Shown: one piece after another, positions 53,000 to 64,000 of the stretch
Layout: each line of letters begins with the position of its first letter
How positions within the stretch are numbered: position 1 is the stretch's first letter
NCBI RefSeq assembly: GCF_022429625.1
Contig: NZ_CP092483.1
Location: forward strand, 1,550,001-1,614,000
Direction of reading: 5' to 3'
Origin: Devosia lacusdianchii
Lineage (GTDB): Bacteria; Pseudomonadota; Alphaproteobacteria; Rhizobiales; Devosiaceae
Length of the DNA stretch: 64,000 bases
The notes under the pieces: model-generated
The model's input: only the letters and a program-made list of their open reading frames with translations
What the model was told of the DNA's origin: nothing
Databases searched by the model: none
Program-made: the position numbers and the translations under genes

Positions 53000-54226
53000 C
53001 TAAGCCGCCAACAACCCCTTCAACTTCACCCCAACATCTCCCAGCGCCGCCACATCCGGCCGCGCAGCGCGCCCGATCAGCATCTCCGCCAACCTGATGT
53101 CCTTGGCCACCACATTCCCCACGCCGATCCCGCTTGCCGCCACCAGCCGTCCATCCGCACTGAGGTGAAAAAGAATGCTCGCCCCGTCCCCCAGCTCCCG
53201 CCGCACCACGGTGCTGCCCTCATCGGATAGCCCGGCAATCTGCAGCGTCAGCTCATACTGATCCGACCAGAACCACGGCACGCTCGAAACCGCTTCATTA
53301 GCGCCAAGCATATTCCGTGCTGCCAGACTCCCCTGGTCCTGCGCATTGCGCCAGCTCTCCAGCCGCACCCGCCGCCCGCCATAGATCGCCAGCGGGAACG
53401 AACAGCAATCGCCGGCCGCGAAAATGTTGGCATCACCAGTCCCCAGACACTGGTCGACCGCAATACCGTTATCGACCTCAAGCCCGGCCTCAGCAGCCAG
53501 CGACACGTTCGGCACCGCCCCAATTCCGATCAGCACCAGATCGGCCTCGATCACCCGCCCACTGTTCAGCGTCACCACGGCGCTGTCCGCACCGCTGGTC
53601 ATGGCCGCAATGCCATCGCCAAACACCAGCTCGACTCCGCCCTCCCGATGCCGCGCCTCGATCTGCCGGGCAATCGCCTCCGGTACGCCACGCGACAGCA
53701 GCCGGGGCAGGGCTTCGATCAATGTCACATCAGCGCCCCGCCGCCGGGCCGTCGCCGCCAGTTCCAGCCCGATGAACCCGCCACCCACAATGGCAATGTG
53801 GCTACCCGCATTGAGCGCGTCCCGTATTCGCTGCGCATCCTCCATCGTCCGCAAATAGACAAAGCGCTCGCCATCAACGTCAGGCAGCCGCCGCGGCGAC
53901 GCACCAGTTGCCAGCAACAGCTTGTCATAGGGCAGGGCCGTTCCATTGCCGCCGACCAGACGTTTCGCCCCACGGTCGATCGCCGCAACCTGCAGACCAC
54001 CGCGAAACGCCACGCCGACCTCAGCCAGCCGCTCCGCCGTCGCAATCGTCTTGGCGGCAAACACCTCAGCCAGCATCCCCTCTTTGCTCAGCGGCGGTCG
54101 CTCATAGGGCAGGTGGTTTTCGCCACCCACCAGTGTCACATCGCCGCCAAACCCTTGCTCCCGCAAAGCCATCGCCGCCCGCGCACCGCACTCGCCCGCC
54201 CCGACAATCACAAAATGCTGTGTCAC
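53000..54226 (-). CDS. mocF: ferredoxin reductase (MocF-like)
   Basis: 408-aa flavoprotein of the rhodocoxin/putidaredoxin-reductase group. An FAD-binding GxGxxG lies at residues 9-14 (VIVGAGECGARAAMALREQG), an NAD-binding GGGFIGLELAATARRRG near 150, and a C-terminal FAD contact FAAGDCCSFP. It passes electrons from NAD(P)H to the Rieske ferredoxin encoded upstream. GTG at 54226 with GGAGG. Third gene of a desaturase-Rieske-reductase operon in the order of mocD-mocE-mocF. The symbol is by position and family, not proof of substrate. Confidence 0.82.
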   Translation of the reverse strand: MTQHFVIVGAGECGARAAMALREQGFGGDVTLVGGENHLPYERPPLSKEGMLAEVFAAKTIATAERLAEVGVAFRGGLQVAAIDRGAKRLVGGNGTALPYDKLLLATGASPRRLPDVDGERFVYLRTMEDAQRIRDALNAGSHIAIVGGGFIGLELAATARRRGADVTLIEALPRLLSRGVPEAIARQIEARHREGGVELVFGDGIAAMTSGADSAVVTLNSGRVIEADLVLIGIGAVPNVSLAAEAGLEVDNGIAVDQCLGTGDANIFAAGDCCSFPLAIYGGRRVRLESWRNAQDQGSLAARNMLGANEAVSSVPWFWSDQYELTLQIAGLSDEGSTVVRRELGDGASILFHLSADGRLVAASGIGVGNVVAKDIRLAEMLIGRAARPDVAALGDVGVKLKGLLAA

Positions 54227-54301
54227 ATCGCCTCCACCCACCCGCGCGTTAGGTCCAATCCTGCGAGCCCCGCTGTCGCCACCGCTTCTCGTACACCAAT
54301 C

Positions 54302-54390
54302 GTCACCCTCGGGCTTGCCCCGAGGGCCCTACACTTGCCGCCCGTTTGGCAGTCTCCCCTTACCTCTCCCCCAATGGGAGAGGTGAAGGC
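54302..54390. repeat. composite intergenic repeat (families B and C)
   Basis: A half copy of family B (GTCACCCTCGGGCTTGCCCC GAGGG, 54302-54326) followed by a family C hairpin ACCTCTCCCCCAATGGGAGAGGT (54362-54384), between the mocE-like and mocF-like genes. Confidence 0.65.
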
Positions 54391-54394
54391 CGCT

Positions 54395-54706
54395 TCAAAC
54401 CTCAATAAACACCGCCCCATCCTCGACCTTCACCGGGTAAATCCGCAGGTTCACACATGCCGGCGCGCCCTTGGCCTCGCCCGTCTTGTAGTTGAACCGC
54501 CCATTGTGCTTGGGACACTCGATGATGTCGTCCATCACCAGCCCATCCGCCAGGCTGATCTGCTCGTGCGTGCAGAGCCCATCCGTGGCAAAATACCGGT
54601 CATCCGGGCTGCGATAGATCGCAAACACCTTCCCCGCGTGGTCAAAGCGGATCACATCCTCCTCATCCACATCATCGGCGCCACAAGCCTCAATCCACTC
54701 GGCCAT
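54395..54706 (-). CDS. mocE: Rieske [2Fe-2S] ferredoxin (MocE-like)
   Basis: 103-aa Rieske-type ferredoxin. The cluster ligands are Cys45 and His47 in GLCTHEQ and Cys64 and His67 in ECPKHNG, all in place. It is a soluble electron carrier for a non-haem iron oxygenase, here expected to be the upstream desaturase-type protein. It resembles the ferredoxin of rhizopine catabolism; a partner in other O-demethylations is also possible. Confidence 0.85.
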   Translation of the reverse strand: MAEWIEACGADDVDEEDVIRFDHAGKVFAIYRSPDDRYFATDGLCTHEQISLADGLVMDDIIECPKHNGRFNYKTGEAKGAPACVNLRIYPVKVEDGAVFIEV

Positions 54707-54734
54707 CTATGTTCGTCCCTTAGCTCACAGTCGT

Positions 54735-54875
54735 TGCCCCTCGTCCCTTGTGGGAGAGGGATAGGAAATCCGCGTTCAGCGGGTTTTCGAGGGTGAGGGG
54801 TGCTGCGCCATCCCATGCCAGACGCCCACGAGAACCCTCACCCTTCGGGCACCTTCTCCCCCGGGGAAGAAGGGA
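54735..54875. repeat. intergenic repeat, family C copy 2
   Basis: GCCCCTCGTCCCTTGTGGGA at one end and CACCTTCTCCCCCGGGGAAG AAGGG at the other, sharing the central segment GTGAGGGGT..CTGCG.CATCCCATGCCAGAC with 30624-30770. Confidence 0.8.
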
Positions 54876-54886
54876 ATCAGTGGCGT

Positions 54887-55975
54887 CTACTCCGCCGCCA
54901 CCGCCCCATCGCCATTGTGAAACGCTTCCTTGTACGGCCTGGCCGTCGCCGGCAGCTCGCGCTTCAGAAAGTAGTCCTCGTTCCTCAACTGCCGCAGGAA
55001 CGCCGGCACCATCTCGCGATACCCCGCGATGATCGATCGGTTCGGTGCCGGCAGGTCATGCTTGATCAGCGCGTGCAGTTGCGGCAGGGCGTGGTAGGGC
55101 ACCATGGGGAACATGTGATGCTCCACATGGTAGTTCATGTTCCAGTAGATGAAGCGGCTCACCGGGTTCATCAGCACCGAGCGGCTGTTGAGCCGGTGGT
55201 CGATGACATTGTCCGCCAGCCCGCCATGCTGCAGCAGGCCGCACATGACCATATGCCAGGCGCCATAGAGCCGGGGCAGTCCAACCAGCATCAGCGGCAG
55301 GATCGAGCCCATCCAGATCGACAGTGCAACAACCGCCGCATAGATCGCCACCCAGATACGGGCGACCCGGATTACCTTGTGCCGCTCCATCTCCGGGATA
55401 AAGCTGGCCTCTTCCTTTGTGATGACCCCAGCCGCATTGCGGACCATATCGATGACAGCATAGCCAACATCGAGAATCCCGAAGAAATTGAGCACGACGC
55501 GGAACAGGTCCGGTGGCCGCATCACCGCGATTTCCGGGTCGCGGCCGACAATCACCGTGTCGGTATGGTGTCGCGCATGGCTCCAGCGCCATGTCACCGG
55601 GTTCCGCATGACCATGAAGCACGCGATCTGGTAGACGACGTCGTTCATCCACCGCGTCTTGAACGCCGTGCCATGCCCGCATTCATGCCACCGCGAATCC
55701 GAGGCCGAGCAGTAGAGCACGCCATAGGCCAGGAAAAACGGCACCGCCCACCATGTGCCCCAGAGCACAATACCGCCAACCGCAAACACCAGCATCGCGC
55801 CCAGCCAGATCGCCGTGTCGCGGATAGCCGGACCATCCGAGCGCTGCATCAGTCCCTTCATGGTCTTGCGATCGATGTCGCTGTGGTACCACTCCGCCGC
55901 GGCCAATCCATTAGCCAGGGCGGCTTCCGAGCTTTTGCCGAGCAGGTTGTAGTCGCGTTTCGCAGTTTCGGCCAA
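54887..55975 (-). CDS. mocD: fatty-acid-desaturase-family oxygenase (MocD-like)
   Basis: 362-aa integral-membrane di-iron enzyme with the three histidine boxes HECGH (97-101), HARHH (133-137) and HVEHH (about 290) and about four TM helices. Its closest relatives by operon layout are MocD proteins of rhizobia, which act with a Rieske ferredoxin and a reductase in removal of the O-methyl group of 3-O-methyl-scyllo-inosamine. The start at 55975 is divergent from a LacI regulator over 153 bp. Fatty-acid desaturation remains an alternative, but the partner genes and the inositol neighbours favour an inositol-derivative substrate. Confidence 0.8.
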   Translation of the reverse strand: MAETAKRDYNLLGKSSEAALANGLAAAEWYHSDIDRKTMKGLMQRSDGPAIRDTAIWLGAMLVFAVGGIVLWGTWWAVPFFLAYGVLYCSASDSRWHECGHGTAFKTRWMNDVVYQIACFMVMRNPVTWRWSHARHHTDTVIVGRDPEIAVMRPPDLFRVVLNFFGILDVGYAVIDMVRNAAGVITKEEASFIPEMERHKVIRVARIWVAIYAAVVALSIWMGSILPLMLVGLPRLYGAWHMVMCGLLQHGGLADNVIDHRLNSRSVLMNPVSRFIYWNMNYHVEHHMFPMVPYHALPQLHALIKHDLPAPNRSIIAGYREMVPAFLRQLRNEDYFLKRELPATARPYKEAFHNGDGAVAAE

Positions 55976-56021
55976 TTGCGCCTCTCAAGGGTAACAGTCT
56001 GCTAGCGAACTCGATTGTTCA

Positions 56022-56103
56022 GATGACGTTCATCTTGATGGCAAACTTGCGGTTTTCAGGCAATGCGCGCATGATGGTTTCTATCATTTACATCATTCTG
56101 ATG
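56022..56103. promoter_or_regulatory. putative LacI operator region between mocD-like and lacI-like genes
   Basis: In 153 bp lie three inverted repeats: GATGA-CGT-TCATC (56022-56034), ATGAT-N7-ATCAT (56071-56087) and CATCA-TTC-TGATG (56091-56103). All are built on a GATGA/TCATC-type core, consistent with one regulator controlling both directions. Confidence 0.5.
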
Positions 56104-56128
56104 CGAAAGATGGTGATAGGAAAATGCC

Positions 56129-57160
56129 ATGGCAAACCGCCCGACCATCGCCGATCTCGCGCGCGTCTCCGGCCTGAGCGTGGCCACGGTCGATCGCGTG
56201 CTCAATGGTCGCTTGCCGGTGAAGCCGGAGACGGCGGAGCGGGTGTTTGCGGCGGCGGAGCAGGTTGGCTATCACGGGACAGGGCTTATCCGGCGACGGC
56301 TCGAGCAGAACCTGCCGCATTATCGGCTGGGATTTCTGCTGCAGCGGCCGGATCAGGTGTTCTATCAGGATTTCGGGCGTGGGCTGGAATATGCGGCGAC
56401 CTTGCCGACCCAGTTCCGCGCCAGTTCGACATTGGCGCATTTGCAGTCCCAGACACCCGGCGAGATCGCCGAGCGGCTCAAGGATATGGCGAAGCGAGTC
56501 GATGCCATCGCCATGGTGGCCATCGATCATCCCGCCGTGACGTCGGCCGTTGCCGAGGTCGAAGCTGCCGGAAAGCCGGTATTCTCGCTGCTGTCAGACT
56601 TCGCCGCCGGTGTTCGCCACGGCTATGTAGGCACCAATAACCGCAAGGTCGGGCGCACTGCCGGTTGGTTCATCGCCAAGGCGGCGCCGGCGACGGGCAA
56701 GGTCGCCGTCTTCGTCGGCAGCCATCGCTTTCACGGCCACGAAATGCGCGAGATCGGCTTCCGCTCCTATCTCCGCGAAACCGCCCCCGACCTCTCCATC
56801 ATCGACACCCAGGTCAGCCTGGAGGATGGCGCGCTGGCCCATGAGGCAACGCTGGATCTGCTGCGCCGTCATCCTGATCTGGTTGCCATCTACGTCGCCG
56901 GTGGCGGCACCGAGGGCGTCATCACCGCTCTGCGCGAGGAGGGGATGGCCGGCCGGATCGCGCTGGTTTGCAATGAAATCAATCCCTTCACCCATGCTGC
57001 CCTGGCCGACAACATCGCAACGGCGCTCATCGCGACGCCCATCGCCGCGGTGTCGCAATCGGTCGTTAATCTGATGGCCGCTGCCATCGCGTCGCCAGGC
57101 GCCGAATCGGGCGGACAAACCTTTTTGCCGTTCGATATCTATGTTTCCGAGAACATCTGA
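56129..57160 (+). CDS. LacI-family transcriptional regulator
   Basis: 343-aa regulator. HTH at residues 5-25 (TIADLARVSGLSVATVDRVL NGR), then a periplasmic-binding-protein-like effector domain with HGYVGTNNRKVGRTAGWFIA and GHEMREIGFRSYL. Its position between the oxygenase operon and the ABC/inositol genes suggests it represses both and is induced by the transported compound or an intermediate. Rhizobial moc loci instead use the GntR-type MocR, so the control differs. Confidence 0.9.
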   Translation: MANRPTIADLARVSGLSVATVDRVLNGRLPVKPETAERVFAAAEQVGYHGTGLIRRRLEQNLPHYRLGFLLQRPDQVFYQDFGRGLEYAATLPTQFRASSTLAHLQSQTPGEIAERLKDMAKRVDAIAMVAIDHPAVTSAVAEVEAAGKPVFSLLSDFAAGVRHGYVGTNNRKVGRTAGWFIAKAAPATGKVAVFVGSHRFHGHEMREIGFRSYLRETAPDLSIIDTQVSLEDGALAHEATLDLLRRHPDLVAIYVAGGGTEGVITALREEGMAGRIALVCNEINPFTHAALADNIATALIATPIAAVSQSVVNLMAAAIASPGAESGGQTFLPFDIYVSENI

Positions 57161-57203
57161 TCGGCCCGTTTTGCCGCCCGGTCCAGCCACGTCGACCATT
57201 TTT

Positions 57204-57264
57204 GGAATGAATATTCCGCATTGACAACTTAACAGAACCTGTGTTTCATTTGCTCCATCAAATG
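57204..57264 (+). promoter_or_regulatory. promoter and operator of the mocC-like/ABC operon
   Basis: Promoter TTGACA (57221-57226)-N17-TTTCAT (57244-57249). Two inverted repeats flank it: GGAAT-N4-ATTCC (57204-57217) just upstream and CATTTG-N6-CAAATG (57247-57264) over the -10 and start site. The layout fits repression by the adjacent LacI-type protein. Confidence 0.6.
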
Positions 57265-57310
57265 ACCGGGCAACATCAAGCATGCCCGGCGTCACAGGGA
57301 GTTCCGGATC

Positions 57311-58135
57311 TTGTCGCTAGCGTTCGCGCTCAACCACATGACAGCGCCGCAGCTTTCGCTGGCAGACTTCTTCCGTCTCGCTGCCAGTCTGCATGCGCCA
57401 CGCGTGGAGATCCGCAACGACATTTCGGGCAATGCCATCCTCGACGGCACCTCCGCCAACGAGGTCAAGCGCCTGGCGTCGGAAAATGATGTGTCTATCA
57501 TTTCCATCAACGCGCTGCAGCAATTCAATCATTGGTCCGCCACGCGCGCCGCCGAAGCCGAAACCCTCGCCGCCTACTGCTCCGGAAGCGGTTCCAAGGC
57601 CCTGGTTCTGGTTGCTGACAACTCTGGCCAGGCCTTTGACAGTGCTACGCGAATTGCCAATGCCACCGAGGCGTTGCAAGGACTTGTCCCCATCCTGCGC
57701 AAGTTTGGCATTATCGGCCTCGTCGAGTGTCTGGGCTTCGAGAGCTGCTCGCTCCGTTCCAAGAAGGAAGCCGTGGCCGCGATCGATCGCGCCAATGGCC
57801 GTGATGTGTTGCGGCTCACCCACGACACCTTCCATCATCATCTCGCCGGCGAACCAGACCTGTTCCCCGAACTGACCGGCCTGGTCCATATTTCCGGTGT
57901 CGACGATCCCGCGATTGCTGTGGGCGATATGCGCGACAGCCATCGCGTGCTGGTCGGCCCCAAGGATCGCCTCGACAATGTCGGCCAGATCGCCGCTTTG
58001 CGGGCAGGGGGCTATGCCGGCCCGCTATCGTTCGAGCCCTTTGCAGAGGAATTGCGCCACCTGGCCGATCCGGCCGGGGCTGTGCGGCAGTCCATGACGT
58101 TCATCACCGAATCCCTCAAGGCCCGCGCGGCCTGA
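57311..58135 (+). CDS. mocC: MocC/IolI-like TIM-barrel isomerase
   Basis: 274-aa xylose-isomerase-type TIM barrel. It begins MSLAFALNHMTAPQLSLADF, then VEIRNDISGNAI, HWSATRAAEAETLAAY, and ends with VHISGVDDPAI and LSFEPFAEE, a pattern I associate with MocC and with 2-keto-myo-inositol isomerases. Metal-binding residues are suggested by LVECLGFE (Glu) and LTHDTFHH (Asp, His). TTG start at 57311. First gene of the transport operon. The exact isomerisation is not known. Confidence 0.75.
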   Translation: MSLAFALNHMTAPQLSLADFFRLAASLHAPRVEIRNDISGNAILDGTSANEVKRLASENDVSIISINALQQFNHWSATRAAEAETLAAYCSGSGSKALVLVADNSGQAFDSATRIANATEALQGLVPILRKFGIIGLVECLGFESCSLRSKKEAVAAIDRANGRDVLRLTHDTFHHHLAGEPDLFPELTGLVHISGVDDPAIAVGDMRDSHRVLVGPKDRLDNVGQIAALRAGGYAGPLSFEPFAEELRHLADPAGAVRQSMTFITESLKARAA

Positions 58136-58216
58136 GGCTCAAAGAATTCCCGGACAAGGGAACATCCGGACAAATGGGGCGCAACCGGACGCCCGCTCTG
58201 TGGAGGAGAAAACGAA

Positions 58217-59170
58217 ATGAAGAAGATCGCGCTGGCCGCTCTGGCCACCACCATGCTCACATCAGGCTTCGTCGGTGCTGCCCAGGCCGAAACCGTCGGC
58301 GTCACCATGGCCGCCTTCGACGACAACTTCCTGACCGTGCTGCGCAACGGCATGGGCGACTACGCCGCGACGCTGGATGGCGTGGAGCTGCAGGTGGAGG
58401 ACGCGCAGAACGACGTGTCCAAGCAGATGAGCCAGATCCAGAACTTCATCGCTTCGGGCGTCGACGCCATCATCGTCAACGCGGTGGATACCGATTCGAC
58501 CGCCCCGATGTCCCAGCTTGCTGCGGAGGCCGGCATCCCGCTGGTTTATGTGAACCGCCAGCCGGTCAACCTCGATACCCTGCCGGAAAGCCAGGCCTTC
58601 GTGGCCTCTAACGAAGTCGATTCCGGCACACTCGAAACCAAGGAAGTCTGCCGCCTGCTGACCGAGGCCGGCAAGACCGAAGCCAACATCGTCGTGCTGA
58701 TGGGCGAACTCTCCAACCAGGCCGCCCGCCAGCGCACCCAGGACGTGCATGACGTGATCGCCACGCCGGAATGCTCCTTCATGAAGATCGTCGAGGAGCA
58801 GACTGGCAATTGGTCGCGCCAGCAGGGTGCCGATCTTGTTACCAACTGGCTGTCCGCCGGCATCGCCTTTGACGCTGTCGTCGCTAACAATGACGAAATG
58901 GCCATCGGCGCCATCCAGGCACTCAAGGCGGCTGGTGTCGCCATGGATGCCGTGATTGTCGGCGGTGTCGACGCTACCGCCGACGCCCTGGCCGCCATGG
59001 AAGCTGGCGATCTCGACGTGACCGTGTTCCAGAATGCTGCCGCGCAGGGCTCCGGGGCTCTCGATGCGGCCCTGGCGCTGTCGCGCGGCGAGGCCGTGGA
59101 ACGCGAAGTCTGGATCCCCTTCGAACTGGTGACCCCGGCGAATTTGGCTGACTATCAGGCGAAGAACTAA
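58217..59170 (+). CDS. sugar ABC transporter substrate-binding protein (inositol/MocB-like)
   Basis: 317-aa periplasmic-binding protein of the ribose/inositol group. Signal peptide about residues 1-24 (MKKIALAALATTMLTSGFVG, cleaved after AQA). Seen are VTMAAFDDNFLTVLRNGMGD, DAIIVNAVDTDS and VANNDEMAIGAIQALKAAGV, the ligand-pocket segments of the family. GGAGGAG in front of the ATG. It delivers the ligand to the ATPase and permease encoded downstream; inositol or an inositol derivative is inferred from context. Confidence 0.88.
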   Translation: MKKIALAALATTMLTSGFVGAAQAETVGVTMAAFDDNFLTVLRNGMGDYAATLDGVELQVEDAQNDVSKQMSQIQNFIASGVDAIIVNAVDTDSTAPMSQLAAEAGIPLVYVNRQPVNLDTLPESQAFVASNEVDSGTLETKEVCRLLTEAGKTEANIVVLMGELSNQAARQRTQDVHDVIATPECSFMKIVEEQTGNWSRQQGADLVTNWLSAGIAFDAVVANNDEMAIGAIQALKAAGVAMDAVIVGGVDATADALAAMEAGDLDVTVFQNAAAQGSGALDAALALSRGEAVEREVWIPFELVTPANLADYQAKN

Positions 59171-59205
59171 GGGTAGAGGCAGTCTCTCCCGGCCCACGGA
59201 ACAGG

Positions 59206-59303
59206 CTTCCCTCCCCCTCGTGGGGAGGGAGTGAGGGTGGGGGGAGTCGCACGCTCCGCGCTCTCGGCCCCACCCACCCTGGCCCTCCCATTAAGGGGAG
59301 GGA
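59206..59303. repeat. GC-rich intergenic repeat, family C copy 3
   Basis: CTTCCCTCCCCCTCGTGGGG AGGGAGTGAGGG at one end and CCACCCTGGCCCTCCCATTA AGGGGAGGG at the other, arms pairing with each other. Lies between the binding-protein and ATPase genes. Confidence 0.75.
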
Positions 59304-59345
59304 ATTCCACCGAGTGCCCGGTCTGGCCCTGCCCACAACAGTCTT

Positions 59346-59371
59346 GGATGCGCCCGTAAATCGGCGCATCC
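59346..59371 (+). other. stem-loop between binding protein and ATPase genes
   Basis: Perfect 9-bp stem GGATGCGCC / GGCGCATCC with an 8-base loop and no following T-run. Such hairpins often stabilise the upstream binding-protein message or reduce downstream expression. Confidence 0.5.
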
Positions 59372-59412
59372 TCCACGCAACACGCCCGGAACGGGCATGG
59401 GAGGCCTGAGCG

Positions 59413-60951
59413 ATGGTCAGTCCGCAGACGATGCGAGCGGTCCGCGAAAGCGGTGCCGTGCCCAACGCGCCCTTTCTTCTGGAAATCGCGCACGCCCGCA
59501 AGGAATTCCCCGGCGTTGTGGCGCTGGATGACGTCTCCTTGCAGCTCAAGCGCGGCACCGTGCATGCGCTGATGGGCGAGAATGGCGCCGGCAAATCGAC
59601 GCTGATGAAGATCATCGCCGGCATCTATGTGCCCGATAGCGGCACGGTAACGCTGCGCGGCGTTGATATCCAACTCAAGTCGCCGCTCGATGCGCTCGAG
59701 AACGGCATCGCCATGATCCATCAGGAACTCAACCTGATGCCCTATATGACGGTGGCCGAAAACATCTGGATCCGCCGCGAGCCGCTGAACCGCCTCGGCT
59801 TCGTTAACCACGGTGAACTCAACCGGCGCACTGCCGAACTTTTTGCCCGGCTCAATATCGATATCGAACCGGACGTACAGGTGTCGACCTTGAGCGTCGC
59901 TAACCGGCAGATGGTCGAGATCGCCAAGGCCGTGTCCTATGAGAGCGACGTGCTCATCATGGACGAACCGACCTCGGCGCTGACCGAAACCGAGGTCGCC
60001 CACCTCTTCCGCATCATCCGTGACCTGCGTGAGCAGGGCAAAGGCATCGTCTACATCACCCACAAGATGAGCGAGCTGTTCGAGATTGCCGACGAGGTGT
60101 CGGTGTTCCGCGATGGTCGCTATATCGGCACCCACGCCTCATCGGACGTCACCCGCGACGACATTATCCGCATGATGGTGGGTCGCGAAATCACCCAGAT
60201 GTTCCCGAAGGAAGAAGTGCCGATCGGCGAAGTCGTGCTGTCGGTCAAGGATCTGGGCCTCAACGGGGTCTTCTCCGATATTTCATTCGACGTCCGTGCC
60301 GGCGAAATTCTGGGCATTGCCGGCCTCGTGGGCTCGGGGCGCTCCAATGTCGCCGAAACCATCTTCGGCGTGACGCCAGCCTCGACCGGGACCATTTCGA
60401 TCAGGGGCGAGAAGGTCGACATCTCGTCGCCAACAGTGGCCATCCAGCATGGCATGGCCTTCATCACCGAGGACCGCAAGGAAACCGGCTGCCTGCTGAT
60501 GCTCGACATCCAGGAGAACATGCAGCTCGCGGTTTTGCAGGACAGCTACACCCGCATGGGCTTCGTGACCCAGCAAGCACTGAGCGCCGTCTGCGAGGAC
60601 ATGAGCGCCAAGCTGCGAGTCAAGACCCCCAACCTCGGGGAGCGGGTGGAGAACTTGTCGGGCGGCAACCAGCAAAAGGTACTGATCGGTCGCTGGCTGC
60701 TGACCAACCCGAAGATTCTCATCCTCGACGAGCCGACGCGCGGCATCGACGTCGGCGCCAAGGCGGAAATCCACCGGCTCGTGACGCAACTGGCGCGCCA
60801 GGGCGTCGCGGTTATCATGATCTCGTCCGAACTGCCCGAAGTGCTTGGCATGAGCGACCGCATCATGGTGATGCACCACGGACGAGCTACGGGCTTTCTG
60901 GACCGCGCCGAAGCGGACCAGGTCAAGATCATGGAGCTGGCGGCGCGATGA
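59413..60951 (+). CDS. sugar ABC transporter, double ATP-binding subunit
   Basis: 512-aa protein with two nucleotide-binding domains of the RbsA/MglA type. Domain 1 has Walker [10 protein letters not shown] (about 56-64) and Walker B LIMDEPTS; domain 2 has a degenerate Walker [10 protein letters not shown], the signature [15 protein letters not shown] and [18 protein letters not shown]. This asymmetry is normal for the family. It powers uptake with the binding protein and permease on either side. Confidence 0.92.
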
Positions 60952-60980
60952 GGGCCTTTGACCAGATTACTTCATCCATC

Positions 60981-61060
60981 GTCACCACCCGGCTTGTCCG
61001 GGTGGTCCACGCCACCGCATCAGTCGAGTCTTGGATTGCCCGGACAAGCCGGGCAATGAC
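60981..61060. repeat. palindromic intergenic repeat, A/B-like variant
   Basis: GTCACCACCCGGCTTGTCCG GGTGG ... GCCCGGACAAGCCGGGCAAT GAC, with complementary outer arms and an internal hairpin in each. Third sequence variant of the same architecture. Confidence 0.75.
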
Positions 61061-61114
61061 GGCCGAACGAAATAGAACAGCAAGCGCAATTTTCGCCGCC
61101 AGGAGGACCTGAGC

Positions 61115-62131
61115 ATGACCACCACATCCGAAAGCCTAGCGCCCGCACGGGCGCGCCGGCGCAAGCTGCCGACCGAGCTCTCCATTCTGCTGGTGCTGGC
61201 CGGCATTGCCCTGACCTTCGAGGCGCTGGGCTGGATCTTCATCGGCCAGTCCTTCCTGATGAACCAGCAACGGCTGACCATCATGATCCTGCAGGTGTCG
61301 GTGGTCGGCATTATCGCCGTGGGGGTGACGCAGGTCATCATCACCGGTGGTATCGACCTGAGTTCCGGCTCGGTGGTGGGCATGACCGCCATGATTGCGG
61401 CCAGCTTCGCGCAAAGCGCCGACTGGGCCCGGCCGGTCTATCCGGCGCTGGTCAGCCTGCCGGTCTTCATTCCGCTGCTCATCGGCCTCGCTATCGGTAC
61501 GCTGGCCGGCATCATCAACGGCTCGCTGATTTCCTACACCAAGATTCCGCCCTTCATTGCCACCTTGGGCATGATGGTGTCGGCGCGCGGTGTAGCCAAG
61601 TGGTATACCAAGGGCCAGCCCGTTTCGGGCCTGACGCCGGAGTTCAACTTCATCGGCTTCGGCATCTGGCCGGTCATCATCTTCCTCGGGGTGGCGCTGA
61701 TCTTCCACATCGCCTTGCGCTACACCCGCTATGGCAAGTTCACCTATGCCATCGGCGCCAATCCGCAGGCGGCTCGCGTCTCCGGCATCAATATCGAAAA
61801 GCACCTGATCAAGGTCTATGCCATTGCCGGCATGCTGGCGGGGCTGGCGGGCCTGGTCACCGCTGCTCGCGCCCAGACCGCGCAGGCCGGCATGGGTGTG
61901 ATGTATGAGCTTGACGCCATTGCCGCGGCCGTTATCGGCGGCACCTCGCTGGCCGGCGGGCAGGGGCGCATCACCGGCACGGTGATCGGCACCATTATCC
62001 TGGGGACGATGACCTCGGGCTTCACGTTCCTCCGCATCGACGCGTACTATCAGGAGATCATCAAGGGCATGATCATCGTCGCCGCCGTGGTGGCCGACCA
62101 GTATCGCCAGCGGAAGCGGAAGAAGGCTTAG
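61115..62131 (+). CDS. sugar ABC transporter permease
   Basis: 338-aa membrane protein of the RbsC/XylH family with eight or more TM helices. Seen are IITGGIDLSSGSVVGMTAMI and GTLAGIINGSLISYTKIPPF, the conserved cytoplasmic loop YAIGANPQAARVSGINIEKH, and GGTSLAGGQGRITGTVIGT. AGGAGG precedes the ATG. Third subunit of the transporter. Confidence 0.93.
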   Translation: MTTTSESLAPARARRRKLPTELSILLVLAGIALTFEALGWIFIGQSFLMNQQRLTIMILQVSVVGIIAVGVTQVIITGGIDLSSGSVVGMTAMIAASFAQSADWARPVYPALVSLPVFIPLLIGLAIGTLAGIINGSLISYTKIPPFIATLGMMVSARGVAKWYTKGQPVSGLTPEFNFIGFGIWPVIIFLGVALIFHIALRYTRYGKFTYAIGANPQAARVSGINIEKHLIKVYAIAGMLAGLAGLVTAARAQTAQAGMGVMYELDAIAAAVIGGTSLAGGQGRITGTVIGTIILGTMTSGFTFLRIDAYYQEIIKGMIIVAAVVADQYRQRKRKKA

Positions 62132-62160
62132 TTCTGCCGCGTTCCATCCTCACCCACGGC

Positions 62161-62259
62161 GTCACCCCGGCCTTGAGCCGGGGTCCATCCTGAGATGGAC
62201 CAGCGGGGCGGCGGGCGTTGAAATACCCCAGGATGGATACCGGCCTGCGCCGGTATGAC
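62161..62259. repeat. palindromic intergenic repeat, family A copy 4
   Basis: GTCACCCCGGCCTTGAGCCG GGGTCCATCC ... GGATGGATACCGGCCTGCGC CGGTATGAC. The outer arms pair over about 28 bp with a few changes. Lies before the dehydrogenase gene. Confidence 0.8.
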
Positions 62260-62315
62260 ATCAAGTTTGTTGCATAACCGCGCCACCTCCCGGCGCGCCT
62301 ACCCGGAGACTACAA

Positions 62316-63353
62316 ATGACCGTTCGTTTCGGCCTGCTCGGCGCTGGCCGCATCGGCAAGGTGCATGCCAAGGCAATCACCTCCAACCCCAAGGCCAAGC
62401 TGGTCGCCGTTGCCGACGCTTTCGAGAAGGCGGCAACCGACCTGTCCGGCCAGTATGGCTGCGAAATCCGCACCATCGACCAGATACTCAAAGCTTCGGA
62501 CATCGATGCGGTGGTGATCTGCACGCCGACCGATACCCATGCCGACCTGATCGAGCAGTTCACCAAGGCCGGCAAAGCCATCTTCTGTGAGAAGCCGATC
62601 GATCTCGACGTCGAGCGTGTCAAGGCCTGCCTCAAGGTCGTCGACGCTGCTGGCGGCACGCTGATGGTGGGCTTCAACCGCCGCTTCGACCCGCACTTCC
62701 AGGCCGTCAAGGACGTCATCGCCAAGGGCGAAATCGGCGCCGTCGAGATGGTGACCATCATCTCGCGCGATCCCGGCGCCCCGCCGGTCGACTATATCAA
62801 GCGCTCGGGCGGCATCTTCCGCGACATGACGATCCACGATTTCGACATGGCCCGCTGGCTGCTCGGCGAAGAGGTCGAAACCGTGACGGCGCAGGCATCG
62901 GTGCTGGTCGACAAGGCCATCGGCGAAGCCGGCGACTATGACAGCGTCTCGGTGATGCTCTCGACCGCGTCAGGCAAGCACGCCACCATCTCCAACTCGC
63001 GCCGCGCCACCTATGGCTACGATCAGCGCATCGAAGTGCACGGCTCCAAGGGCGCCGTCTCGGCCGAAAACCAGCGCCCGGTCTCGATCGAAGTCGCCAA
63101 CGCCTCCGGCTACACCCGCCCGCCGCTGCACGACTTCTTCATGACCCGCTATCTCGAGGCATATGCCCGCGAAATCAGTACCTTCATCGACGCCGTTGAA
63201 TCAAAATCTCCGGCCGCGCCGAGTGGGCTGGATGGGTTGATTGCATTGGCGCTGGCCGATGCGGCGGTGAAGTCGGTGAAGGAGGGCCGGGCGGTGAAGG
63301 TGAGCGAAGTCACCGGCGCGCTGGCGGATAAGAGCGTGTTCCAGGGGCGGTAA
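62316..63353 (+). CDS. iolG: inositol 2-dehydrogenase (IolG/MocA family)
   Basis: 345-aa Gfo/Idh/MocA-family oxidoreductase. Rossmann motif GAGRIGKVHAKAI (9-21); the catalytic Lys93 in CEKPI; Asp170 and His174 in FRDMTIHDFDM. Members oxidise myo-inositol, scyllo-inositol or scyllo-inosamine to the 2-keto form with NAD. In rhizobia MocA of the same family acts on the rhizopine product. It ends the ABC operon region and is convergent with iolB. Confidence 0.88.
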   Translation: MTVRFGLLGAGRIGKVHAKAITSNPKAKLVAVADAFEKAATDLSGQYGCEIRTIDQILKASDIDAVVICTPTDTHADLIEQFTKAGKAIFCEKPIDLDVERVKACLKVVDAAGGTLMVGFNRRFDPHFQAVKDVIAKGEIGAVEMVTIISRDPGAPPVDYIKRSGGIFRDMTIHDFDMARWLLGEEVETVTAQASVLVDKAIGEAGDYDSVSVMLSTASGKHATISNSRRATYGYDQRIEVHGSKGAVSAENQRPVSIEVANASGYTRPPLHDFFMTRYLEAYAREISTFIDAVESKSPAAPSGLDGLIALALADAAVKSVKEGRAVKVSEVTGALADKSVFQGR

Positions 63354-63371
63354 ACGCTTCCCAAATTCGAT

Positions 63372-63452
63372 CATCACCCTCGGGCTTGACCCGAGGGTCT
63401 CTCCTCGCCTGTGCCGTGCTGAAATTGGCCCTCGGATCAAGTCCGAGGGAAA
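63372..63452. repeat. palindromic intergenic repeat, family B copy 4
   Basis: TCACCCTCGGGCTTGACCCG AGGG ... CCCTCGGATCAAGTCCGAGG G, arms complementary with several changes. Between iolG and iolB, which are convergent. Confidence 0.8.
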
Positions 63453-63484
63453 CGCCGGTGGGTGGGGAAACGTCAGGGCCAGCC

Positions 63485-64000
63485 CTACTTCAACAGCCAC
63501 TCATGCTCGGCCGCATTGTGGAATTTCCACACCCGCTTCGGGCCAGCCATGACGTTGAGATAGTACAAATCATACCCCGCCGTCGTCGCCACCGGGTGAT
63601 AACCCCGCGGCACCAGCGTCACGTCGCCATCTTCCACCGCCATCGCCTCGTCCAGGCTCCGGTCGTCGGTATAGACGCGCTGGAACGCAAAACCCTGAGG
63701 CGGGTTCATCCGGTGATAGTAGGTCTCTTCGAGAAAGCTCTCGTGCGGCAGGTTGTCCTGGTCATGCTTGTGCGGCGGGTAGGACGAGGTATTGCCCTGC
63801 GGGGTGATCACCTCGACCACCAGCAGCGAGTTGGCCGAGGCGTCGTCCTCCGGCATGATATTGTAGACGTGTCGTACATTGGCACCCTTGCCGCGGGTGA
63901 TGCGCGGATGGGTACCCGGCGGAATGACCTTGGCGGTGTAACTGCCGCCCCCCGGCGCCGCGCAGACCGCCAGCTCCACCGCCGTGGTCGCGTCGGCGAC
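63485..64000 (-). CDS. iolB: 5-deoxy-glucuronate isomerase, partial at the window edge
   Basis: C-terminal 171 residues of a cupin enzyme that converts 5-deoxy-glucuronate in inositol catabolism; the 5' end is outside the window, and the frame is open through the last base. Seen are GKGANVRHVYNIMPEDDASA, the metal motifs YPPHKHDQDNLPHESFLEET and VPRGYHPVATTAGYDLYYLN, and the end AAEHEWLLK, all typical of IolB. Family length is about 265-270 aa. It is probably the last gene of an iol operon lying to the right. Confidence 0.92.
   Translation of the reverse strand, partial: VADATTAVELAVCAAPGGGSYTAKVIPPGTHPRITRGKGANVRHVYNIMPEDDASANSLLVVEVITPQGNTSSYPPHKHDQDNLPHESFLEETYYHRMNPPQGFAFQRVYTDDRSLDEAMAVEDGDVTLVPRGYHPVATTAGYDLYYLNVMAGPKRVWKFHNAAEHEWLLK

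Follow-up and report, generated by a model that had tools for sequence, protein, structure and literature searches.

The right-hand end of a 64,000-nucleotide stretch of DNA (hereafter the window; bases 1,550,001–1,614,000 of the single-contig 4.36 Mb genome of Devosia lacusdianchii) carries, at positions 53000 to 64000, a locus in which a predicted O-demethylase system is encoded divergently from a LacI-type regulator, an isomerase-like protein, a sugar transporter and an inositol dehydrogenase. The gene context supports its description as a catabolic locus for O-methyl-cyclitols under LacI control, distinct from the moc system for the catabolism of rhizopine (3-O-methyl-scyllo-inosamine). 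Judged from its sequence and that of its relatives, it is fairly probable that an O-methylinositol of plant origin, most likely D-pinitol, is imported and used as a carbon source.

Three genes on the minus strand (from 55975 down to 53000) lie in the order mocD-mocE-mocF. The first (54887..55975, with TTG as the predicted start codon) encodes a membrane di-iron oxygenase, the predicted O-demethylase, which displays domain PF00487 (132.9 bits) and three histidine boxes (HECGH, HARHH and HVEHH) and has a single match in its own genome at E <= 0.001. The second (54395..54706) is a Rieske [2Fe-2S] ferredoxin recognised by TIGR02377 (MocE_fam_FeS; 179.1 bits, cut-off 136.15) and PF00355, and the third (53000..54241) is a mocF-like FAD/NADH ferredoxin reductase (PF07992, Pyr_redox_2, 236.1 bits; PF14759, Reductase_C, 68.2 bits), for which the top NCBIfam models (HcaD and AndAa) stay under their cut-offs. 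Facing these, the plus strand (56129–63353) encodes a LacI/GalR regulator (56129..57160; PF00356 and PF13407), a triose-phosphate isomerase (TIM)-barrel protein (57311..58135; PF01261), a periplasmic sugar/inositol-binding protein identified by domain search (58217..59170), the ATPase (59413..60951; two stretches matching PF00005) and permease (61115..62131; PF02653) of a sugar ATP-binding cassette (ABC) transporter, and the inositol 2-dehydrogenase IolG (62316..63353; TIGR04380, 432.8 bits, cut-off 355). A preliminary description of this DNA, made from the letters alone, had named the oxygenase, ferredoxin and reductase in this order and divergent from LacI, as well as the transporter and dehydrogenase behind the isomerase, and all of these genes were found where it had placed them. 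It had also appended iolB to the run led by LacI; while the identity of that gene is borne out (TIGR04378, 321.6 bits, cut-off 205), iolB (63485..64000, minus strand, running 273 bases beyond the window) is instead the last member of a convergent iolC-D-E-B operon on the opposite strand. The iolCDE genes that the same description had proposed to seek to the right of the window are present, with IolE, IolD and an IolC-DUF2090 fusion each exceeding the cut-off of its NCBIfam model, and an RpiR-type regulator, seen in part, lies past the fusion. Given IolG and IolB at this locus, the adjacent iolE/D/C genes and two IolA-type dehydrogenases (TIGR01722, over cut-off) elsewhere in the genome, the inositol (iol) pathway is thus encoded in full (IolG, IolB, IolE, IolD, IolC and IolA).

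Among solved structures, the TIM-barrel protein best matches 4hgx/2q02 (123.7 bits), which carry the titles 'xylose isomerase domain containing protein' and 'putative cytoplasmic protein' and which represent Salmonella STM4435, by its gene order the iolI2 of the iol island. The next match is Bacillus subtilis IolI (1i60; 28.7 bits), and the genome's own IolE scores 24.6 bits. The candidate metal ligands E139, D172, H175, H176, H193 and E242 are invariant across 18 aligned rows, and none of the NCBIfam models matched the protein. On its sequence, the protein is IolI-like rather than IolE-like: like the IolI/STM4435-like inosose isomerases it belongs to TIM-barrel family PF01261, and its candidate metal-binding residues are invariant and its best match is 4hgx/2q02; it differs from B. 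subtilis IolI in the low score between the two and in being known from sequence alone. The preliminary description was right in placing an isomerase-family gene after lacI; its label 'MocC-like' is unconfirmed by a comparison that covered the genome's own IolE and left the named MocC outside. IolI converts 1-keto-D-chiro-inositol to 2-keto-myo-inositol, and D-pinitol is 3-O-methyl-D-chiro-inositol. D-pinitol leads among the candidate substrates because the IolI reaction is the step that it would need after demethylation and oxidation by IolG. The relevant part of PMC10783015 terms iolI2 uncharacterised.

In the proposed pathway, the ABC transporter would import the O-methylinositol, and electrons would pass from NADH through MocF and MocE to MocD, which, as expected from its family, would hydroxylate the O-methyl carbon and so release formaldehyde and free inositol. 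The freed inositol would be oxidised by IolG and, were it D-chiro-inositol, the 1-keto product would be converted to 2-keto-myo-inositol by the IolI-like protein before entering the iol pathway. A fitting physiological observation is available for Rhizobium mesoamericanum, in which, according to the part of the report consulted, mocDEF homologues were induced 1.53- to 2.11-fold by Mimosa root exudate, as were iol genes, and in which pinitol (145 uM) was the most concentrated exudate compound listed (PMC5789663).

Relatives of MocD were recovered from at least 583 contig stretches of named species genomes, of which the best 80 were kept for context, and from 283 plasmid records, with gene context examined in about 90 loci. 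Among those best 80 of at least 583, a LacI gene is divergent from mocD in 76, MocR is present in two, and neither is in view in the remaining two. The LacI form, which had been taken as a local departure from moc, is consequently the common form among the relatives examined and the MocR form is rare; the Devosia locus is a copy of a widespread arrangement. In the LacI-type loci that extend 9 kb or further on the LacI side (n = 71), the TIM-barrel gene follows lacI in 58, a binding-protein gene in 24 and iolG in 17. On the mocF side of the same loci, a PanB-like gene is found in 49 and purU in 14, absences on this side being uncorrected for contig ends. In R. grahamii, a relative of R. mesoamericanum, a single locus combines LacI, mocDEF, the PanB-like gene, PurU and the TIM barrel. 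Furthermore, a screen of 297 genomes of the order (MocD at E <= 1e-60, TIM barrel at E <= 1e-40) identified 42 genomes with MocD, 26 with the TIM barrel and 18 with both (Fisher p 9e-12), and the two genes adjoin by coordinates in 10 of these 18. The association is more than chance. At the level of the genus (37 genomes), MocD of at least 78% identity occurs in eight genomes, all eight of which possess the TIM barrel.

A PanB-like protein often encoded after mocF (in loci L037 and L117 and many others) scores too low to pass the panB model (106.9 and 114.4 of 207.55 bits) and may represent a distinct kind of enzyme that consumes formaldehyde or methylene-folate, while PurU of L117 exceeds its cut-off (326.1 against 285.95 bits). 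We infer that the two genes fit the disposal of the released one-carbon unit; in many relatives their products could take up formaldehyde via folate chemistry. In the genome of the window, the best PanB match is 35% identical and lies at another place.

Several variants of the arrangement were also encountered. Two further genomes of the genus (loci L015 and L016) encode a MocD of 56–57% identity, accompanied by a MocE and a MocF of its own, and are devoid of the TIM barrel, and this MocD probably has another substrate. A Burkholderia cenocepacia plasmid (MocD 52%) carries a more distant LacI, a xylose-isomerase gene, a TIM barrel and iolG facing mocDEF. On an Acidiphilium plasmid, an IS1380 transposase gene is located between lacI and mocD (L174:6523-7869), and in L042 the binding-protein gene was matched as two pieces (61% and 94%), which suggests a duplication or a frame break.

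The intergenic region between mocD and lacI contains the palindrome TGATAGAAACCATCA (56072..56086, minus strand), of a type common to the relatives. Palindromes of this TGATAGA-A/T-TCTATCA type are present in all 81 LacI-mocD intergenic regions, with a lowest score of 16.2 on a 15-base matrix made from the very 81 regions that it scores (some of them duplicates, such as L036, which is the L049 record); among 319 background segments taken from the window, the top score is 12.8. Four loci outside the matrix (L073, L097, L171 and L172) score 22–27, and the three MocR loci (L038, L092 and L099) score 2–7. Where two sites are present, they are spaced by 41–42 bp, equal to four helical turns, in 37 of 39 loci. 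The site in the window is the sole match without mismatch in the 4.36 Mb genome to TGATAGAWWCYATCA, a pattern written after the site had been seen. The LacI protein would bind such operators in the region that separates lacI from mocD. Two Mesorhizobium loci (L161:1409 and L162:1198) additionally contain a near-perfect operator, TGATAGAATCCATCA, which lies some 2.4 kb ahead of lacI and upstream of the neighbouring open reading frame.

A second, 16-base palindrome form lies within the first 60 bases of 42 of 68 distinct LacI-TIM gaps (as opposed to 0.15% of shuffles) and begins 1–7 bases past the LacI stop codon in 36 of those 42. In its place, the Devosia gap carries GGAATGAATATTCC (57204..57217), a GGAA-N6-TTCC motif upstream of the TIM-barrel, transporter and iolG genes, which recurs as GGAATGTTCATTCC upstream of iolC (G000:C1:1619765); three further matches in the window lie elsewhere. 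According to the portion of PMC2597717 available, the motif GGAA-N6-TTCC characterises the inositol regulon in Caulobacter and its relatives and was tested in Caulobacter. The isomerase, transporter and dehydrogenase genes should therefore answer to the general inositol regulator, and two regulators appear from the sequence to operate in Devosia, one for the demethylase and LacI and the other for the isomerase, transporter and dehydrogenase. The locus thereby resembles the alphaproteobacterial myo-inositol module described in the same source (idhA, ibpA-iatA-iatP, iolCDEBA and IolR) in its operon of transporter and IolG, its iol operon and its motif, and, like the Mesorhizobium loti version, it holds the dehydrogenase gene (idhA in M. 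loti) within the transporter operon; unlike that module, it adds an O-demethylase and a LacI regulator (PMC2597717).

A number of observations weigh against pinitol utilisation as the function of this locus and of its relatives. The IolG protein remains under the myo/D-chiro-inositol model NF052679 (156.5 of 540 bits), and the top structural matches of the binding protein include glucose- and ribose-binding proteins at near-equal Z. Within the genus, a distance of 2.2 Mb separates MocD from the TIM barrel in one genome (G029), and three genomes carry the TIM barrel without a MocD of at least 78%. The TIM barrel is missing beside mocDEF on pSymB of Sinorhizobium meliloti and in Mesorhizobium loci including L100, L109 and L119, and pinitol thus cannot explain every member of the family. 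With regard to regulation, the distant loci L173–L176 lack this operator type (matrix scores below 4), and the LacI-TIM gap of Devosia is without the second set of LacI operators seen in Rhizobium. The Mimosa exudate, moreover, was a mixture, the induction was small, and its authors, in the part of their text consulted, take the induced genes as rhizopine homologues (PMC5789663).

The most probable alternative, although it is clearly less probable than pinitol, is a myo-type O-methylinositol (ononitol, sequoyitol or bornesitol) as the main substrate, with the TIM barrel performing some other isomerisation. Members that lack the TIM barrel would need just IolG once the substrate is demethylated, and ononitol is given as the main O-methylinositol of peas in the consulted part of PMC8730688; a myo-inositol product, however, would not need the isomerase that is kept in 58 of the 71 LacI-type loci. 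It is rather improbable that MocDEF acts on another methylated polyol or sugar (a methyl-hexose, or an N-methyl or O-methyl inosamine) sharing the inositol transporter. The enzyme class leaves the substrate unfixed, and the TIM-less loci, together with loci rich in Gfo/Idh genes in Acidiphilium and Jiella, suggest varied substrates in the family, but the neighbours in Devosia are inositol genes with an inositol motif.

The preliminary description had left the choice between a rhizopine and another methylated cyclitol, and had proposed a pathway different from moc or broader than it, noting the LacI-type regulator and seeing no MocR or aminotransferase gene. The locus does resemble the rhizopine mocCABRDEF genes (S. 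meliloti L5-30 and R. leguminosarum) in its mocD-mocE-mocF order, its inositol-type binding protein and dehydrogenase and the iol pathway downstream. Its MocD is, in addition, 79% identical to that of a Phyllobacterium locus with a rhizopine-type MocR (L038), and the binding protein beside the L038 MocR shares 75–83% identity with its counterparts in a dozen LacI-type loci. It differs from moc in having a LacI of the FixV family and TGATAGA-type operators, where moc has MocR and moc-boxes, and in its IolI-like isomerase. The regulator of rhizopine catabolism is MocR, and the L038 protein passes its model (NF052281; 765.1 bits, cut-off 650). No protein over this cut-off is encoded in the genome of the window (best 287.2 of 650 bits) or in the 37 genomes of the genus, and one of the 61 genomes searched, outside the genus, has one. 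The best match to the moc-box AAAGYGGYTCT upstream of the window mocD has three mismatches, as compared to 0, 2 and 1 upstream of mocD in L038, L092 and L099, respectively, in a test that is loose when taken alone (16 of 81 LacI-type intergenic regions reach two mismatches). The binding protein scores 38.3 of 420 bits on the rhizopine-binding model NF052284, and the protein beside the L038 MocR is likewise low (43.6). Furthermore, common strains carry LacI-type loci, whereas rhizopines are termed rare in nature in the part of PMC6668481 consulted.

The proposed oxygenase tree was built for MocD from 71 rows, mostly drawn from the 80 closest relatives of the window protein, with distant contexts undersampled; MocR-type rows appear in it under the label 'none' (MocR being on the same strand as mocD), and their type was assigned from gene context and the MocR model. 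The three MocR-type proteins occupy two separate positions within the clade that holds the LacI-type proteins (99/98): L038 stands beside S. meliloti pSymB (95/87), and L092 and L099 stand, with modest support, beside Devosia nitrariae (89/73, within a 96/93 group). Because these proteins nest inside the LacI-type tree, rhizopine use looks derived, and the simplest reading of the tree would be that rhizopine loci acquired their mocDEF genes from loci of the LacI type, possibly on two occasions. On the evidence of the MocR model, the moc-box and the tree, a rhizopine locus with an exchanged regulator was set aside as unlikely; the absence of MocR and the distinctness from moc (no MocR, no good moc-box and a different operator) were upheld, and of the two substrates offered a methylated cyclitol is the one that the context appears to support. 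A membrane lipid desaturase or hydroxylase placed here by accident, a thought prompted by the PF00487 domain, is very improbable, since NCBIfam desaturase models stay far under cut-off (DesB 33.6 of 500), the neighbourhood is kept across classes and the oxygenase has a dedicated Rieske ferredoxin and reductase, the MocD tree itself holding no characterised desaturase with which clustering could be judged.

The regulator of the window belongs, by alignment, to the family of FixV, a LacI-type protein of M. loti that is needed for nifA2 expression (PMC3538637). As described in the accessible part of that source, FixV homologues adjoin mocDEF and precede the Msi119 TIM barrel in rhizobia (a neighbourhood published in 2013), and fragments of msi119 lie between fixV and nifA2; the inducer was suggested there to be an inositol derivative, and nifA2 was proposed to have come under the control of FixV by way of a downstream promoter (PMC3538637). 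Those clusters share with the Devosia locus the regulator family, the TIM barrel, the divergent mocDEF and the already inferred inositol derivative, and differ in that the rhizopine label was kept there for mocDEF (PMC3538637, same part). The Devosia form with its transporter, IolG and iol operon, the operators, the tree, the PanB/PurU link and the pinitol hypothesis go beyond that work. The window LacI and the FixV of a Mesorhizobium stretch (L156) are identical at 48% of 229 ligand-domain positions and 68% of the first 50 positions, and at 74% of 54 positions of a pocket motif, a weak comparison given that its segments were picked by hand, by eye and from recall.

Five Mesorhizobium fixV-nifA stretches (L155–L158 and L170) were examined, which count as about one observation owing to their near-identical promoters. 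Each carries a sigma-54 activator gene downstream of its fixV homologue (the activators tested, those of L156 and L170, pass the NifA model), with a TIM-barrel remnant in between that was detected by tblastn in L155 and L157 (42%) and read by eye in L156, L158 and L170; the L156 piece yielded no Pfam domain. In L156 a dicarboxylate-symporter gene (PF00375) precedes this row. A second arrangement, in which a FixV-like LacI is followed by the TIM barrel, occurs in the Mesorhizobium loci L151–L154, L161–L163 and L165, and in L151 it adjoins DctA- and NodD-like genes (by eye).

The 15-base operator has no match at two mismatches in the fixV-nifA loci (best matrix score 8.1). A 16-base variant of the palindrome, TGATAAAATACTATCA, is located directly after fixV, where the operator of the LacI-TIM loci sits; its pattern was first seen in Rhizobium LacI-TIM gaps and adopted after looking, and the match is to be read as a lead and not as a blind test. 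Its score is attained by 0.15% of shuffles and by 6 of 434 Mesorhizobium background segments (real sites included), and a 54-base segment of the fixV-nifA promoter, selected by eye, shares 78% identity with the LacI-TIM promoter in L151. The palindrome occupies -553 to -538 from nifA2 (with the start codon chosen to match the published 558-bp gap) and therefore falls slightly beyond the 536-bp fragment that proved sufficient in the published deletions (PMC3538637), which counts against a role in the response to FixV. A weaker repeat (-531 to -507) is alone in falling between the ends of the 536-bp (Fix+) and 426-bp (Fix-) deletions reported in the same part of that source (PMC3538637). Because the Fix+ fragment starts just past the palindrome, the element required for nifA2 may be this adjacent repeat.

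A bolder reading, less likely than not, would be that this regulator family arose as a sensor of plant O-methylinositols for catabolism, and that the nodule switch FixV is a captured copy which still senses pinitol or ononitol as the signal for Mesorhizobium to make NifA2 and fix nitrogen. The nifA2 promoter would then be the former promoter of the IolI-like isomerase gene, whose place nifA2 has taken, and the demethylase of rhizopine loci would be another, later branch of the same module. Sensing of pinitol or ononitol by FixV is our inference; Lotus transports pinitol into the symbiosome, and bacteroid uptake is said to be unclear in the consulted part of PMC8730688.

Many legumes contain pinitol and ononitol (PMC8730688, in part), and searches of the open-licence PMC literature turned up no description of bacterial genes for their demethylation. 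The locus supplies candidate genes for the demethylation of O-methylinositols and puts the usual 'rhizopine' label of mocDEF in question; relatives of MocD are common. It appears to be a real, conserved catabolic module with an inferred substrate, and its testable link to the control of nitrogen fixation provides a concrete hypothesis for the signal that FixV may sense when switching on nitrogen fixation in Mesorhizobium.

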